Origin: Microcaldota archaeon
GTDB lineage: Archaea > Micrarchaeota > Micrarchaeia > Micrarchaeales > Micrarchaeaceae
Direction of reading: 5' to 3'
Assembly: GCA_021801355.1 (NCBI GenBank)
Contig: JAJYYB010000013.1
Coordinates: forward strand, 1 to 61,916
DNA: 61,916 nucleotides
Both the position numbers and the translations under genes were made by a program. A model generated the notes under the pieces. It saw only the letters and a list, made by a program, of their open reading frames with translations, made no database searches and had not been told where the DNA came from. Of the stretch, positions 49,922 to 54,430 are shown one piece after another (positions within the stretch are counted from its first letter, which is position 1; each line of letters opens with the position of its first letter).

Positions 49922-49962
49922 AAACTGTTTTGTGAGAAACTAATGTTTTTAAGCAACAGGAT

Positions 49963-50037
49963 GCTCCCTTCGTCTAGTCCGGCCAAGGACGCGGGGCTTT
50001 CAACCCTGCAACTCGGGTTCAAATCCCGAAGGGAGCA
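49963..50037 (+). tRNA. tRNA-Glu (TTC)
   Basis: Acceptor GCTCCCT/AGGGAGC, anticodon arm CGGGG-CTTTCAA-CCCTG giving TTC, T arm CTCGGGTTCAAATCCCGAG-like. The gene is complete: the integrated element restores its 3' half. It is the integration site of the mobile element that begins at 50038. Confidence 0.93.
49976..50037 (+). repeat. Left attachment site (attL), 3' part of tRNA-Glu
   Basis: 62-bp direct repeat with 54354-54415. Differences at 50004 (C here, T at 54382) and 50007 (T here, C at 54385). Both are third-codon silent in the integrase frame and keep a Watson-Crick or G-U pair in the tRNA anticodon stem. Confidence 0.93.
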
Positions 50038-50925
50038 CATGCAATTTGCGACAGTAAAGCCGGGTTCAAATCTCTAGCCAATGCAAAGAAATTAAGCGAC
50101 ACACGGTTCGGTTCCATCACGGAGACCGAACCCGAAAAACTTAAGAAGTACATAAAAGAGGTGCTTCCAAATCTAACCTTCCATGAGATTAAGGGCGTGC
50201 TATCCTTAATCTACCAAATCAAGAAAAGACGATACAGAAGCAATGCGCCTCCCAAGTACGGAAGCCTGAACAAGGGCTTCTCGGAACAGGAGGTGCAGGC
50301 CTTCTTCAAGGTAATAGAAAACGACAAGTTTCGCCTATTGTTTGGGTATCAAGCGCAGCTTGGACTCAGGATAGGCGAAGCTGTCAAGGTAAACGTGAAA
50401 GACATAAAGTTCGAGACACGTGAGCTAATCGTTAAAACTGAAAAGGCTCACGTGATAGACACGATGCTTATACCAGTCCCATTATTTCGGCAGACTTTAG
50501 AGTTCATAAACCGTAACGAGAAAGCTATAATGCAAGCTGGCGGGTTCGTGTTCTTCGCAGAAAAGGGGCATAGCCTTAGGGGCGAGCCCTACCTAGAGAA
50601 GAACTACGTCCGCAAGGTATTCCGGGAGTACGTCCAAGCGGCCAAGCTGGACGAGGTCTACGACCAGAGCGATGAGACCTACGGCAGAACACCTAGAAGG
50701 CTGCATAGGCTAACCACGCATAGCTTAAGGCACTATGCGATAACCAGCTTCGCTAGGCAGAGCAATGGGAATGTAGTGCTAGCCAGCCGCTTCGCAAGGC
50801 ATAGCGATCCCAGCACCACCATGACCTACATAAATACAAGGAAAGACGAGCTTTACAAGGCAGTAGATGAAGCATTCTCTCTAGAGAGGGCATCCAGCCT
50901 CAAAGCCAAGCTTTCCATGCCATAA
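50038..50925 (+). CDS. SSV-type tyrosine integrase, C-terminal (catalytic) part
   Basis: The frame stays open from inside the tRNA without any ATG, GTG or TTG until GTG 50161, so in the integrated state it lacks its own natural start. Fused in frame to the 28 residues encoded at 54332-54415 it gives about 323 residues. Catalytic residues of tyrosine recombinases, numbered in that joined protein, are Arg139 in LGLRIGEA, His256 and Arg259 in HSLRHYAI, the His of ARHSDPST, and Tyr292 in MTYINTRK. It catalyses site-specific integration and excision at tRNA-Glu. Whether any truncated protein is made from GTG 50161 is unknown. Confidence 0.88.
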   Translation, partial: HAICDSKAGFKSLANAKKLSDTRFGSITETEPEKLKKYIKEVLPNLTFHEIKGVLSLIYQIKKRRYRSNAPPKYGSLNKGFSEQEVQAFFKVIENDKFRLLFGYQAQLGLRIGEAVKVNVKDIKFETRELIVKTEKAHVIDTMLIPVPLFRQTLEFINRNEKAIMQAGGFVFFAEKGHSLRGEPYLEKNYVRKVFREYVQAAKLDEVYDQSDETYGRTPRRLHRLTTHSLRHYAITSFARQSNGNVVLASRFARHSDPSTTMTYINTRKDELYKAVDEAFSLERASSLKAKLSMP

Positions 50926-50934
50926 ATCTGACAT

Positions 50935-51082
50935 TTTCTCTACATGGCTAGGATTCTCTACATGCCCAGCCAAATTCATGTAGAGAAAGGTTACGAGGGA
51001 TTTACTCGTAAATGCCCTATTTTCTCTCTACACTACTGCACATCAATATTATAGCCGTCCATGTAGAGAGTCATGTAGAGAC
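50935..51082. repeat. Iteron cluster: five copies of CATGTAGAGA plus one degenerate copy
   Basis: Copies read as TCTCTACATG at 50937-50946 and 50955-50964, and as CATGTAGAGA at 50977-50986, 51060-51069 and 51072-51081. A degenerate copy TTTCTCTCTACA lies at about 51021-51032. Two copies point one way and three the other. Likely binding sites for a replication or partition protein, next to ParA. Confidence 0.85.
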
Positions 51083-51101
51083 TTACGCCTACGCAGCCTG
51101 C

Positions 51102-51334
51102 GCCCGCCCCTAAAGACACCTTCGGTGTCGCTCAGGCGGGCTACGGCTGCCACGGCGGCTGCTTTGCAGGACATGGCGGCTAGGAACTACGTCTTTTGTC
51201 TATAAAAGACGCCGATTTTGGGCGGGGGCAAAATCGGCCTTTAAGGTAGTTCCTACTGGTGGCAGTTTGCAGTCCGTTGGGACGCTAGCCCTCATAAGCC
51301 GTAGGCGCATGAGTTGGCGTAGCTAAAGGGCTAG
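51102..51334 (+). ncRNA. Highly structured G/C-rich region: candidate structured RNA or replication origin
   Basis: Six or more perfect stems are visible. GCCCGCC 51102-51108 pairs with GGCGGGC 51135-51141, enclosing GACAC/GTGTC with a UUCG-type loop. CTGCCAC 51147-51153 pairs with GTGGCAG 51259-51265. Inside that, TAGGAACTAC 51181-51190 pairs with GTAGTTCCTA 51246-51255 and encloses two hairpins: GTCTTTT/AAAAGAC (51191-51210) and GCCGATTTTG/CAAAATCGGC (51211-51238), a three-way junction. GTCC/GGAC at 51272-51283 and CTAGCC/GGCTAG at 51285-51334 follow, the last enclosing CTCAT/ATGAG. No ORF fits. Strand is not determined by the pairing; plus is assumed because ParA follows. Confidence 0.6.
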
Positions 51335-51349
51335 GGTTACCTAATGATA

Positions 51350-51416
51350 CGGTTCGAGTTAGTTGGGGACAAAATCTAACTAAATTAATAAATATTGTGC
51401 TACCTAAGTTAGTATT
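51350..51416 (+). promoter_or_regulatory. ParA promoter with GTTAG repeats
   Basis: TATA-like AATAAATATT near 51386-51395 predicts a near-leaderless ParA mRNA. AGTTAG motifs at about 51358 and 51407 and an inverted CTAACT at about 51377 surround it and may be an autoregulatory operator. Confidence 0.4.
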
Positions 51417-52397
51417 ATGAAACAGCTAGTTTTCTTCAATAATAAAGGTGGCGTAGGGAAGACCACTTTCATACAACATCTAGGTTACGCTTTAGAGAGA
51501 CAAGGCAAGAAGATATTGTTCATTGATGCTGATCCGCAATGCAACTTGACTGCGTATATTTGTACGGACGAACAGATAGATAAGTTTTGGTTAAGCAAGG
51601 ATAGTATCTACAACGTTGTTCAACCAATAATAGTCGGTACTGGCGACATTGATACAAAAATAGTACCATATCAAGTTCCCGGAAGAAATATCTGGTTACT
51701 TCCGGGCGATGTCGCACTCGGTGAATTTGAACAAACACTAGCTGATAGCTGGATAAATGCGCTTGCAGGCAGAGAGATTGGTTTTAGAGCGACTTCTGCT
51801 ATTTTTCGTTATATAAACAATTGGGCTGTAGCGAATGGAATAGATTATGTATTACTAGATATAGGGCCTAATCTAGGGGCACTAAATCGCGCGATATTGT
51901 TAGGGTGTGATTATTTCATAATACCACTAGTCCCAGATTTATTCTCTCTTAGGGGTCTAACAAATATGGGCCGAACTTTTGTAAGATGGATGAATGAGTG
52001 GGGCGGCGCCACTAGTCGGTTTGAAAGCAAAACATTTCCGGTTCAGAATGGCAGACCTGCCTTTGCCGGCTATGTAACTGCACATTTTAATATATATAGA
52101 AAAAACCCAACAAAGGCGTGGGAGAGATGGAATGCAGAGATACCATCGCGAATAAAGAGAGATGTAGTAGACCAATTATTGAAGATTGACAAGAATTTGG
52201 TTGTTCCACTAAATGGTGGTTATAGTATAGGTGACATGAAGAACTATCATAGTTTAGTTCCACTTTCGCAAGATAAATTGAAACCTATTTTTGAGTTAAC
52301 TTCAAAAGACGGTGTAGTTGGGGGGCATGTGGCATATGTTGAAGAGTGTAATGCGACGTATACTGAAATTGCAAAGAAAGTATGCAAGAAGTTATAG
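51417..52397 (+). CDS. ParA-like partition ATPase
   Basis: 326 residues. Deviant Walker A KGGVGKTTF at residues 10-18, Walker A' FIDADPQCNLTAYI, Walker B YVLLDIGPNLGALN, matching the ParA/MinD superfamily (AAA_31). C-terminal half (from about 200) is variable. No ParB gene follows. The stop codon TAG is the first three bases of the IS630 insertion; without the insertion the frame would end one codon later (Ile then TGA). Likely segregates the element's circle. Confidence 0.88.
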   Translation: MKQLVFFNNKGGVGKTTFIQHLGYALERQGKKILFIDADPQCNLTAYICTDEQIDKFWLSKDSIYNVVQPIIVGTGDIDTKIVPYQVPGRNIWLLPGDVALGEFEQTLADSWINALAGREIGFRATSAIFRYINNWAVANGIDYVLLDIGPNLGALNRAILLGCDYFIIPLVPDLFSLRGLTNMGRTFVRWMNEWGGATSRFESKTFPVQNGRPAFAGYVTAHFNIYRKNPTKAWERWNAEIPSRIKRDVVDQLLKIDKNLVVPLNGGYSIGDMKNYHSLVPLSQDKLKPIFELTSKDGVVGGHVAYVEECNATYTEIAKKVCKKL

Positions 52398-53481
52398 ATA
52401 ATTGCGCTGTTTAGTTTACATTTATATACTTTGCTATTGATAATAAAGTATGCATAAATTGACCGGGTACCAGATACCTCATCAGGTTCTTGAACACTAC
52501 AGGTTCCGAGCGGTAGAACTGAGAAAAGAAGGGAAGAAAGTAAATGACATTGCACATTATTTTGGTTTGAACAGAGTTACTGTTTCATATTGGCTATCAA
52601 AATATAAAAACGAAGGAAAAGAAGCACTGAAGAGCAAGAAGGCATCGGGGCCTAAACTGAAACTTTCTCCGAAAGAAACAATGAAGATACTCAATAATCT
52701 TAAATTGCCTGCAACTGATTTTGGTTTCGAAACGCCACTTTGGACATGCAAGAGAGTCGAATATCTGATCAAAAAACTAACCAGGAAGAATCTGGATAAT
52801 TCAAACGTATGGAGACTATTAAGGAGATTGGGGTTAACCAATCAGAAAGGAGAACGTAGAGCATTGGAACAGAATCCGAGGGAAACAAAAAAGTGGCTGA
52901 GAGAAGAATGGCCGATGATCCTTGCTCATGCAAAACGTTGGCAGGCCATGATATATTTCCAAGACGAGGCAGGAGTTTCAGTGAATGCAGTTATGGGTAA
53001 AACATGGGCGCCTAAAGGTAAAACGCCGATAGTGAAACTGTCTGGTAATAGAGGAGGCATCTGTGTGTCCTCTGCAATAAGTCCTGCAGGCAGGTTAGTG
53101 TTTAGAGTAGAAAAGAAAACAGTCAATTCTACAACTTTTATCGACTTTTTAGATAAAATCAGAAAGCATCACAAAAATCGTAAAGTTATCGTTATAGTAG
53201 ACCGGGCACCATCACATACTTCAGGCAAAGTCAAAAAGTATGTAAAAGAAAACAAGAGGGCATTTGCACTTTATTATCTGCCACCATATTCACCAGAATT
53301 GAATCCAGATGAAAAAGTCTGGGGGTATCTGAAGGAGAATAAACTGAAGTCTCATCAGGCAAAGACGAAGGTGGAATTGAAGGATATTACTGTGTCTGCT
53401 ATGAAAAGCATACAGAGGCAACCAACACTTCTGACATCCTTTTTCTATAATATTATGTAAAATAAGCTACGCAATTATCTA
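52395..53481 (+). mobile_element. IS630-family insertion sequence (about 1,087 bp)
   Basis: Terminal inverted repeats TAGATAATTGCG (52395-52406) and CGCAATTATCTA (53470-53481), flanked by TA on both sides (52393-52394 and 53482-53483), the target-site signature of the IS630-Tc1-mariner group. Encodes one intact transposase. It split the ParA and MUG113 genes, which would otherwise be within about 10 nt of each other. Confidence 0.85.
52450..53460 (+). CDS. IS630-family DDE transposase
   Basis: 336 residues, apparently intact. N-terminal helix-turn-helix (VNDIAHYFGLNRVTVSYWLS), then DDE catalytic residues: Asp in YFQDEAGV, Asp in VIVDRAPSH, Glu in LNPDEKVWG. ATG 52450, with TATA-like TTTATATACTTT near 52420-52431 inside the left end. 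Confidence 0.92.
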   Translation: MHKLTGYQIPHQVLEHYRFRAVELRKEGKKVNDIAHYFGLNRVTVSYWLSKYKNEGKEALKSKKASGPKLKLSPKETMKILNNLKLPATDFGFETPLWTCKRVEYLIKKLTRKNLDNSNVWRLLRRLGLTNQKGERRALEQNPRETKKWLREEWPMILAHAKRWQAMIYFQDEAGVSVNAVMGKTWAPKGKTPIVKLSGNRGGICVSSAISPAGRLVFRVEKKTVNSTTFIDFLDKIRKHHKNRKVIVIVDRAPSHTSGKVKKYVKENKRAFALYYLPPYSPELNPDEKVWGYLKENKLKSHQAKTKVELKDITVSAMKSIQRQPTLLTSFFYNIM

Positions 53482-53489
53482 TAATATGA

Positions 53490-54209
53490 GTGTTGTATGT
53501 GGATAAACAATACATTCTTGAGGAGATACGCAGAACGACCATAGAAAATGATGGAAAACCATTGGGCCATCGTAAATTTGAGAATGAAACAGGTATAAAA
53601 TATCACGATTGGCTTGGAAAATATTGGGCCAGATGGGGCGATGCTCTTAAGGAAGCAGGGTTTACACCCAACAAACTTACTAGTGCATTTACTGAAGATT
53701 TTATTTTAGAAAAACTATGTGGATTAATTCGCGAATTGGGATATTTTCCATCCGCTGCGGATCGAAGATTGAAGAGGAATAAAGATAAGACATTTCCAGC
53801 TGATGGAGTTTTTGAGCGAATTGGTAATCAACGTACTCTCAAATTGAAGGTAGTTTCGTATTGCAAGCAGAGAGGTATTGAAGATGTAATCAAGTTATTT
53901 CAGATACCTGAAAGTGGTGAAGAGAAAAAGAAAATCAATACAACTATTGAAATTGTTGGAACTGTATACTTGATAAAATCTGGCAAATTCTACAAAATAG
54001 GCCGTACCAATTCACTGGGGCGGAGAGAATATGAAATCTCATTACAATTACCAGAAAAGGAGAAATTGATACATTCGATTAAAACGGATGACCCTGTCGG
54101 GATAGAAAAATACTGGCACGATAGATTTGATAAATTCCGTGCTAACGGCGAATGGTTCTCACTCACGCTAGAAGAAGTCAATGCGTTTAAGCGTAGGAAA
54201 TTCATGTGA
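53490..54209 (+). CDS. HNH-associated-repeat protein with MUG113/T5orf172 (GIY-YIG-like) C-terminal domain
   Basis: 239 residues from GTG 53490 (GTG 53499, MDKQYILEEIRR, is an equal candidate). Two N-terminal repeats of the homing-endonuclease-associated type: GKPLGHRKFENETGIKYHDW with WGDALKEAGFTPN, and a second from about 70-130. The C-terminal 90 residues, GTVYLIKSGKFYKIGRTNSL then WHDRFDKFRANGEWFSLT, are the MUG113/T5orf172 form of the GIY-YIG fold. Such proteins are thought to nick or bind DNA. It may act in replication, copy control or defence of the element; all are inference. Confidence 0.75.
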   Translation: MLYVDKQYILEEIRRTTIENDGKPLGHRKFENETGIKYHDWLGKYWARWGDALKEAGFTPNKLTSAFTEDFILEKLCGLIRELGYFPSAADRRLKRNKDKTFPADGVFERIGNQRTLKLKVVSYCKQRGIEDVIKLFQIPESGEEKKKINTTIEIVGTVYLIKSGKFYKIGRTNSLGRREYEISLQLPEKEKLIHSIKTDDPVGIEKYWHDRFDKFRANGEWFSLTLEEVNAFKRRKFM

Positions 54210-54214
54210 TGCCG

Positions 54215-54243
54215 CGGTTCAGATATTTCGCAAATCTGAACCG
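54215..54243. terminator. 10-bp perfect inverted repeat after the MUG113 gene
   Basis: CGGTTCAGAT (54215-54224) pairs with ATCTGAACCG (54234-54243), loop ATTTCGCAA. It sits just after the gene's stop and before the integrase promoter; it could terminate transcription or be an operator for the integrase. Confidence 0.5.
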
Positions 54244-54250
54244 TGCCTGC

Positions 54251-54257
54251 TTATATA
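54251..54257 (+). promoter_or_regulatory. TATA box of the integrase gene
   Basis: TTATATA, about 75 nt upstream of the integrase ATG. AGGTG at 54322-54326 provides a Shine-Dalgarno five bases before ATG 54332. Confidence 0.6.
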
Positions 54258-54331
54258 GCTTGCTTGGTAAATGCTACTGTTCAGAAAGCTTGGAATGTTT
54301 GGGTTGGTTTTGTTTGTGTTTAGGTGCTTGA

Positions 54332-54430
54332 ATGAAGCTAGAAAACGACGCTAAGTCCGGCCAAGGACGCGGGGCTTTCAATCCCGCAACTCGGGTTCAA
54401 ATCCCGAAGGGAGCAAAAACTCATTTTTAA
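54332..54430 (+). CDS. SSV-type integrase, N-terminal part (reads through attR)
   Basis: ATG 54332 opens MKLENDAKSGQGRGAFNPAT and continues through the 62-bp tRNA-derived repeat in exactly the frame used by the C-terminal part at the left end. In the integrated state it ends at TAA 54428-54430 after 32 residues. In the excised circle it would run into 50038 and onward. This is the diagnostic arrangement of a partitioning integrase. Confidence 0.85.
   Translation: MKLENDAKSGQGRGAFNPATRVQIPKGAKTHF
54354..54415 (+). repeat. Right attachment site (attR)
   Basis: 62-bp copy of the 3' part of tRNA-Glu, 60/62 identical to 49976-50037. It lacks the 5' half of a tRNA and is not a functional tRNA gene. 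Confidence 0.93.

Follow-up and report, generated by a model that had tools for sequence, protein, structure and literature searches.

Within the window, i.e. the whole stretch of 61,916 nucleotides of Micrarchaeota DNA that was analysed, we found an integrated element that probably belongs to a family of cargo carriers of 1.9-7 kb in Micrarchaeota, characterized by a split tyrosine integrase (Int), a module of iterons and hairpins, and exchangeable cargo. This family is previously unremarked in the literature searched, in which we found no description of it (subscription papers and preprints were mostly outside reach). The initial annotation had proposed an integrative plasmid with int, ParA and MUG113 as its gene set. 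The integrated element and its SSV-like split integrase stand, but these three genes do not define it, since relatives retain int, the module and the right end together with different cargo. (As had been supposed, the combination of int, ParA and MUG113 is not catalogued elsewhere as a described family.) The features of the element are as follows.

49963-50038, + strand: tRNA-Glu(TTC), the integration target, restored by attL (ARAGORN; Rfam tRNA, 58 bits)
49976-50037, + strand: attL, a 62-nt direct repeat that in the circular form codes for residues 8-28 of Int (open joined frame)
50041-50925, + strand: int(C), the catalytic part of the tyrosine integrase (PF00589, E 9e-13)
50938-51080, both strands: iterons, five copies of CTCTACATG, two on + and three on - (repeat and relative comparison)
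51085-51330, + strand: conserved hairpin module, structured and non-coding, ~245 nt (covariance model R1)
51344-54215, + strand: exchangeable cargo interval, start approximate (similarity to relatives ends at ~51329-51343 and restarts at 54216)
51417-52397, + strand: ParA/MinD-superfamily ATPase, 326 aa, cargo (AAA_31, E 3e-29)
52392-53484, + strand: IS630-family insertion at the ParA stop codon, transposase at 52450-53460
53490-54209, + strand: MUG113/T5orf172 (GIY-YIG-type) protein, 239 aa, cargo (MUG113, E 4e-15; T5orf172, E 4e-8)
54216-54331, + strand: right-end shell, with a hairpin and the TATA-like CTTATATA ahead of int(N)
54332-54415, + strand: beginning of int(N) (MKLENDA), which continues into attR at 54354-54415 (joined 323-aa frame, no stop)

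The boundaries of the element were set by script-found repeats, and those of its cargo are approximate. The two 62-nt direct repeats (49976-50037 and 54354-54415) are 97% identical, lie 4,378 bp apart and correspond to the last 62 nt of tRNA-Glu(TTC). The left boundary is the repeat at 49976, and int begins, with its 5′ part, at the far right end (54332-54415). The circular form would have a length of 4,378 bp, or ~3.29 kb without the IS630 of ~1,090 bp, which agrees with the earlier estimate of a complete element of about 3.3 kb minus the IS. Its proteins are the integrase, a 326-aa ParA-type ATPase, the IS630 transposase and a 239-aa MUG113/T5orf172 protein. The T-arm sequence of the tRNA, CGGGTTCAAATC, is repeated at 50061-50072 of the window, 47 bp inside the element and within int; this second copy is perhaps a trace of an earlier change of target.

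A single open frame of 323 aa spans the circle junction, starting with the ATG at 54332 in the right end and continuing through the att repeat into the left end. This places the att site within int, which is therefore divided into int(N) and int(C) on integration. Those relatives of int(C) that are 87-95% identical sit in tRNA-Glu in every case with a called tRNA. The joined Int frame is likewise open through a tRNA-derived att in 14 of the 16 family elements with both ends defined (313-343 aa), and the att sites of these 14 derive from differing tRNA genes. A TATA-like sequence precedes int(N) at the right end and is conserved in relatives, so insertion would part int(C) from its likely promoter. 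The right-end shell that contains this sequence is 94.5% identical in one related locus (L046) and 85% identical in two others (L049 and L050). Among the Int loci searched, none has an int(N) signature upstream of int(C), with a signature that covers only some groups; the assemblies examined thus gave no sign of an intact int or a free circle.

The initial annotation had called the integrase SSV-type. Self-splitting through an att inside int bears this out, but the domain expected of that type is missing. Int matches PF00589 alone above the cut-off (five family members scanned, E up to 10), whereas SSV-type integrases carry Phage_integr_3 (PF16795) and are described as having arisen once (PMC8371274). 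PF16795 has no match in the element's own genome; across the phylum just 3 of 245 genomes have it, and none of the three belongs to Int's host family or its sister family. Given that this domain is missing from Int and near-absent in the phylum, it is possible, as far as sequence comparison goes, that self-splitting integrases arose a second time in the Micrarchaeota elements. Elsewhere in the same genome (L056, contig C7, ~16.0-18.2 kb), two opposite integrase genes, one of them interrupted by a stop, have no hairpin module nearby.

Comparison with other genomes, which are metagenome assemblies of varying completeness, shows that the ends of the element are conserved and its interior is not. 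In one relative (G167), the left end (49962-51329) is 89% identical and the right end (54216-54415) ~94% identical, and the interval between them is unrelated. Similarity breaks at the same points in several other relatives. Furthermore, two genomes of the same genus can be compared at the same site. In one (G231), a tRNA-Glu that is 96% identical lies beside the same TFB gene with no integrase, i.e. the site is empty (L169); in the other (G034), an identical tRNA-Glu beside the same TFB gene holds a related element of ~7.2 kb with different cargo, including an Eco57I-like methylase relative. Both insertion and cargo difference are thus evident at one site. (In L057 and L166, on contig C2 of G034, the int gene of this related element at the same tRNA-Glu site is interrupted by ~1.3 kb of other sequence.) The element's own genome has five strong copies of the hairpin module, each near an Int, and its five elements occupy five tRNA genes: Glu-TTC, Leu-TAG, Ala-TGC, Gln-TTG and Gln-CTG. 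Sizes within the family are 1.9-7.4 kb.

The hairpin module had been noted as a structured region, and both its folding score (z = -4.4 on the + strand, 51085-51330) and covariation across relatives confirm that the structure is real. With the covariance model, 78 copies were detected across 55 of 301 genomes, which all belong to two taxonomic families of one order. Changes on both sides of the pair (compensatory) occur at 24 of the 36 pairs. In an alignment that was itself fitted to the covariance model, pairing is retained in 96.4% of structure cells, compared with 86.5% in shuffles, and none of 500 shuffles did as well; slid structures pair in only 28-48%. G-U and A-C cells are both rare. 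RNAalifold, applied to an independent, unfitted alignment, gives double changes at 13 of 24 pairs. Rfam 15 has no match for the module, and returned two tRNA matches only. The loops of some copies are reverse-complemented while their stems are kept, in the first hairpin for L123 relative to L065, L116 and L121, and in the second for L130 relative to L057. These inverted loops favour a role at the level of DNA, or none for the loop sequence, and argue against a sequence-specific RNA role. The apex of L123 is the exact reverse complement of that of L065; loop inversion at hairpins could be neutral, or mutational noise. Neither the hairpin pattern nor the DNA of iterons plus hairpins matched anything in viral contigs, plasmids or phages.

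Iterons, also noted initially, lie immediately before the hairpins. Copies of CTCTACATG start at 50938 and 50956 (+ strand) and at 50977, 51060 and 51072 (- strand), so that five are observed within 190 bp upstream of the hairpins versus 0.04 expected from shuffling. Most module copies have two to six iterons resembling CTCTACATG in the same 190 bp, with an expectation below 0.1. Of the 46 module copies examined, 32 are preceded on their own strand by an Int gene no more than 3 kb away, and four more are cut off by the edge of a contig or of the extracted sequence; the gap from Int to the module is ~165 bp in many copies. Module-bearing genomes are Int-positive in 47 of 55 cases, versus 110 of 295 overall (P ~4e-16). 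At gaps of 0.7-1 kb between int and the module, the iterons stay beside the hairpins, not int. They are also retained with Int proteins that are only 42-61% identical and in some of the module copies that have no same-strand Int nearby. Three loci (L104, L118 and L126) have iteron-hairpin modules without a nearby integrase; L104 retains a GHKL-ATPase-like cargo gene and the right end, which suggests an element that has lost int.

The present cargo consists of the ParA and MUG113 genes. ParA has the Walker motif KGGVGKTT, and its nearest solved relative, aligned over the full length, is 3pg5, an uncharacterised protein. Full-length ParA occurs in 5 of 295 genomes, the element's own included, and the relatives in the four other Micrarchaeota genomes (63-66% identical) are single genes in unrelated chromosomal settings, one of them adjoining tRNA-Gly (L005-L008). 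We considered and rejected a role in partition, as there is no ParB and the close relatives are stand-alone genes. Homologues on bacterial plasmids are 30-39% identical. In plasmids of Vibrio ponticus and Spirosoma (L040 5001-6856 and L041 5001-6889), a full-length homologue is directly followed by a SIR2-family gene, which suggests a ParA-SIR2 pair, possibly for defence. The IS630 copy (transposase match E 3e-65; 30-nt terminal inverted repeats at 52392-52421 and 53455-53484) is the only one in its genome. It sits at the end of ParA, but the length of ParA still matches that of its relatives, so the gene is not visibly damaged.

The second cargo protein had been described as HNH-repeat/MUG113. 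The MUG113 domain matches at E 4e-15, but the HNH_repeat match is sub-threshold, at 16.1 bits with a cut-off of 26. Y160, G171, R178, H195 and E206 are invariant in ten relatives; a structure model of low confidence (pTM 0.36) matched no solved fold at E <=0.001. The protein occurs in 4 of 295 genomes, in one of them as a fragment only. Two relatives in Micrarchaeota, 86% and 61% identical, follow an AlbA_2 gene and an HNH gene. Those in bacterial genomes are 44-54% identical and, as with free-standing homing nucleases, are mostly single genes between housekeeping genes. (Full-length bacterial homologues, L152-L159, are from diverse metagenome genomes and lie mostly singly between unrelated genes, and could possibly be a free-standing mobile GIY-YIG gene.) The MUG113 protein thus appears to resemble a free-standing GIY-YIG nuclease. 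The initial annotation had suggested a search for ParA and MUG113 in other archaeal genomes; this revealed relatives of each, but their pairing is confined to the element's own genome among the 295.

Elsewhere in the family the same interval holds other genes. These span defence, metal resistance and surface proteins, and include an OLD-type ATPase with a type IIG restriction-methylase (L046), an M.Eco57I-type methylase accompanied by a helix-turn-helix gene and an unnamed partner (L137), a PD-(D/E)XK nuclease (L111), and an HNH protein with MUG113 (L043). Other elements carry ParE-like toxin, cation-efflux and LMW-phosphatase/arsenate-reductase-like genes (L049), a redoxin and a mercuric-reductase-like flavoprotein (L114), a copper-type P-ATPase (L120), or LemA and 2′-5′ ligase-like proteins (L103), and the other elements of the same genome (L052-L055) carry unknown or surface proteins. 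Redox cargo (redoxin, mercuric-reductase-like flavoprotein, ArsR-like regulator) recurs beside the module in several species (L114, L107, L112 and L126). We discarded L110 as an example of an empty element: on reading its sequence, a toxin-antitoxin-like pair lies between int and the iterons, so this 1.9-kb unit is not strictly cargo-free.

A replication protein shared by the family would be expected to recur among these genes. When 174 cargo ORFs from 45 Int loci were clustered, no protein besides Int occurred in more than four loci, which argues against a hidden Rep common to the family. Furthermore, no replication initiator is among 28 Pfam-scanned proteins of relatives, nearly all of them cargo. 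The element's own proteins include no match to a ParB or centromere-binding partner or to a replication protein, in agreement with the earlier observation of ParA without ParB or known Rep, and none of the relatives examined has a known Rep; the presence of one in an undamaged relative had been named beforehand as what would speak against the earlier proposal. The further suggestion that an unknown initiator hides among int, ParA and MUG113 is not supported, as the latter two are absent from nearly all relatives that share the module. Since the core persists around other cargo and ParA and MUG113 are rare, these two proteins are best read as passengers and not as parts of a replication engine.

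Based on these comparisons, the elements have a core of three parts. One is a tyrosine integrase gene with att near its 5′ end; when the element enters a tRNA gene at its 3′ end, int is split so that int(N), together with its likely promoter, comes to lie at one end of the element and int(C) at the opposite end. Another is the iteron-plus-hairpin module downstream of int, and the last a conserved right end, with the genes between module and right end being exchanged freely. In the present element, ParA and the GIY-YIG-type MUG113 protein are the current cargo, with IS630 a later arrival. Integration would silence int and the excised circle would restore it, so the element presumably stays put until the intact Int of a sister element acts in trans; excision of elements with SSV-type integrases is likewise expected to need intact Int in trans (PMC8371274). 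Judging purely from its anatomy, the module most likely serves in cis as an origin or mobilisation site on which a host or helper protein acts, though we hold this role with less certainty; such a protein would explain why no Rep is carried. It is also possible that the module represents arm-type sites of Int, or packaging or transfer signals.

This last interpretation of the module belongs to an explanation that is quite possible, in which the elements have no replication of their own and only excise and integrate, or are packaged or transferred by a helper, with the module serving as an Int-arm, packaging or transfer site. No Rep was found in any member examined, the iterons adjoin int in many members, with ~165 bp between Int and the module, and bacterial hitcher elements can lack replication or transfer genes (PMC11389934). 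However, the iterons are fixed beside the hairpins and not int where the gap is 0.7-1 kb, they are conserved though Int is only 42-61% identical, and we found no virus or plasmid that bears the module. It is extremely improbable that the element is instead a minimal autonomous plasmid with ParA, MUG113 or both as its unknown initiator: these are its only proteins apart from Int and the IS, and iterons are typical of iteron plasmids, but other iteron-hairpin elements lack ParA and MUG113 (save one with MUG113), and both proteins have stand-alone chromosomal relatives.

Similarly, we consider it very improbable that the element derives by decay from a larger virus or plasmid and has lost its Rep. 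The same compact plan of 1.9-7 kb recurs in many species with no larger relative seen, neither the ends nor the joined int frame are damaged, and Int, ParA and MUG113 have no relatives in viral contigs, although the IS630 insertion does represent some decay and SSV viruses and Thermococcus plasmids typically have split integrases (PMC8371274). A further idea, compatible with a cargo carrier, concerns only the two passengers, which could form a two-gene defence system with an ATPase sensor and a nuclease effector. They lie in tandem on one strand with only the IS between them, bacterial ParA homologues precede a SIR2 gene in two plasmids, and many sister elements carry defence genes. This idea is nevertheless improbable, considering that the pair occurs only in the element's own genome, that in other Micrarchaeota MUG113 comes after HNH and AlbA_2 genes, whereas its bacterial relatives mostly stand by themselves, and that a PADLOC search gave no convincing match.

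To our knowledge, almost nothing is known about gene movement between DPANN archaea, which are mostly uncultured and lack genetic tools. With its recognisable core, a compact and abundant carrier of this kind predicts where cargo genes are located and could explain the patchy occurrence of defence and metal-resistance genes; its core is also a candidate vector backbone. The family furthermore challenges the view that self-splitting integrases have a single origin, and an origin-like module without an encoded initiator raises a testable question. In its widest form, the proposal would be that Micrarchaeota harbour widespread Rep-less elements with a second, independently evolved lineage of self-splitting integrases, and that these elements persist extrachromosomally through an iteron-hairpin origin served by the host or a helper and exchange defence and metal-resistance cargo. 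As a whole, this picture is tentative and somewhat unlikely.

Among known systems, the SSV-type (‘suicidal’) elements (SSV viruses, pSSVi, pTN3 and pT26-2) likewise have att within int and a split into int(N) and int(C). They encode replication or virion genes, unlike the Micrarchaeota element, and their integrases have PF16795, whereas Int has PF00589 only. Within Micrarchaeota, the islands of Mia14, an ARMAN-type archaeon, have ParA, an XerD-type integrase, defence genes and copper genes (PMC5498576). The Mia14 island is 36.5 kb long and lies in a protein gene, in contrast to the small tRNA-bound element here, and the part of that paper available to us mentions neither small elements bound to tRNA genes nor a split integrase or a hairpin module (PMC5498576). 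ParA resembles the 3pg5 family and MUG113 the GIY-YIG proteins that are free-standing, but in this case both are carried as cargo by an integrated element.

Tycheposons are small integrating elements that consist of an integrase and variable cargo and depend on others for spread. Together with PICMI and other bacterial hitchers, which share this plan (PMC11389934), they appear by analogy to be the nearest bacterial elements in lifestyle. We identified no packaging signal, primase or helper for the Micrarchaeota element. In contrast to the bacterial hitchers, it belongs to an archaeon, its integrase splits itself on insertion, and its iteron-hairpin module is conserved.
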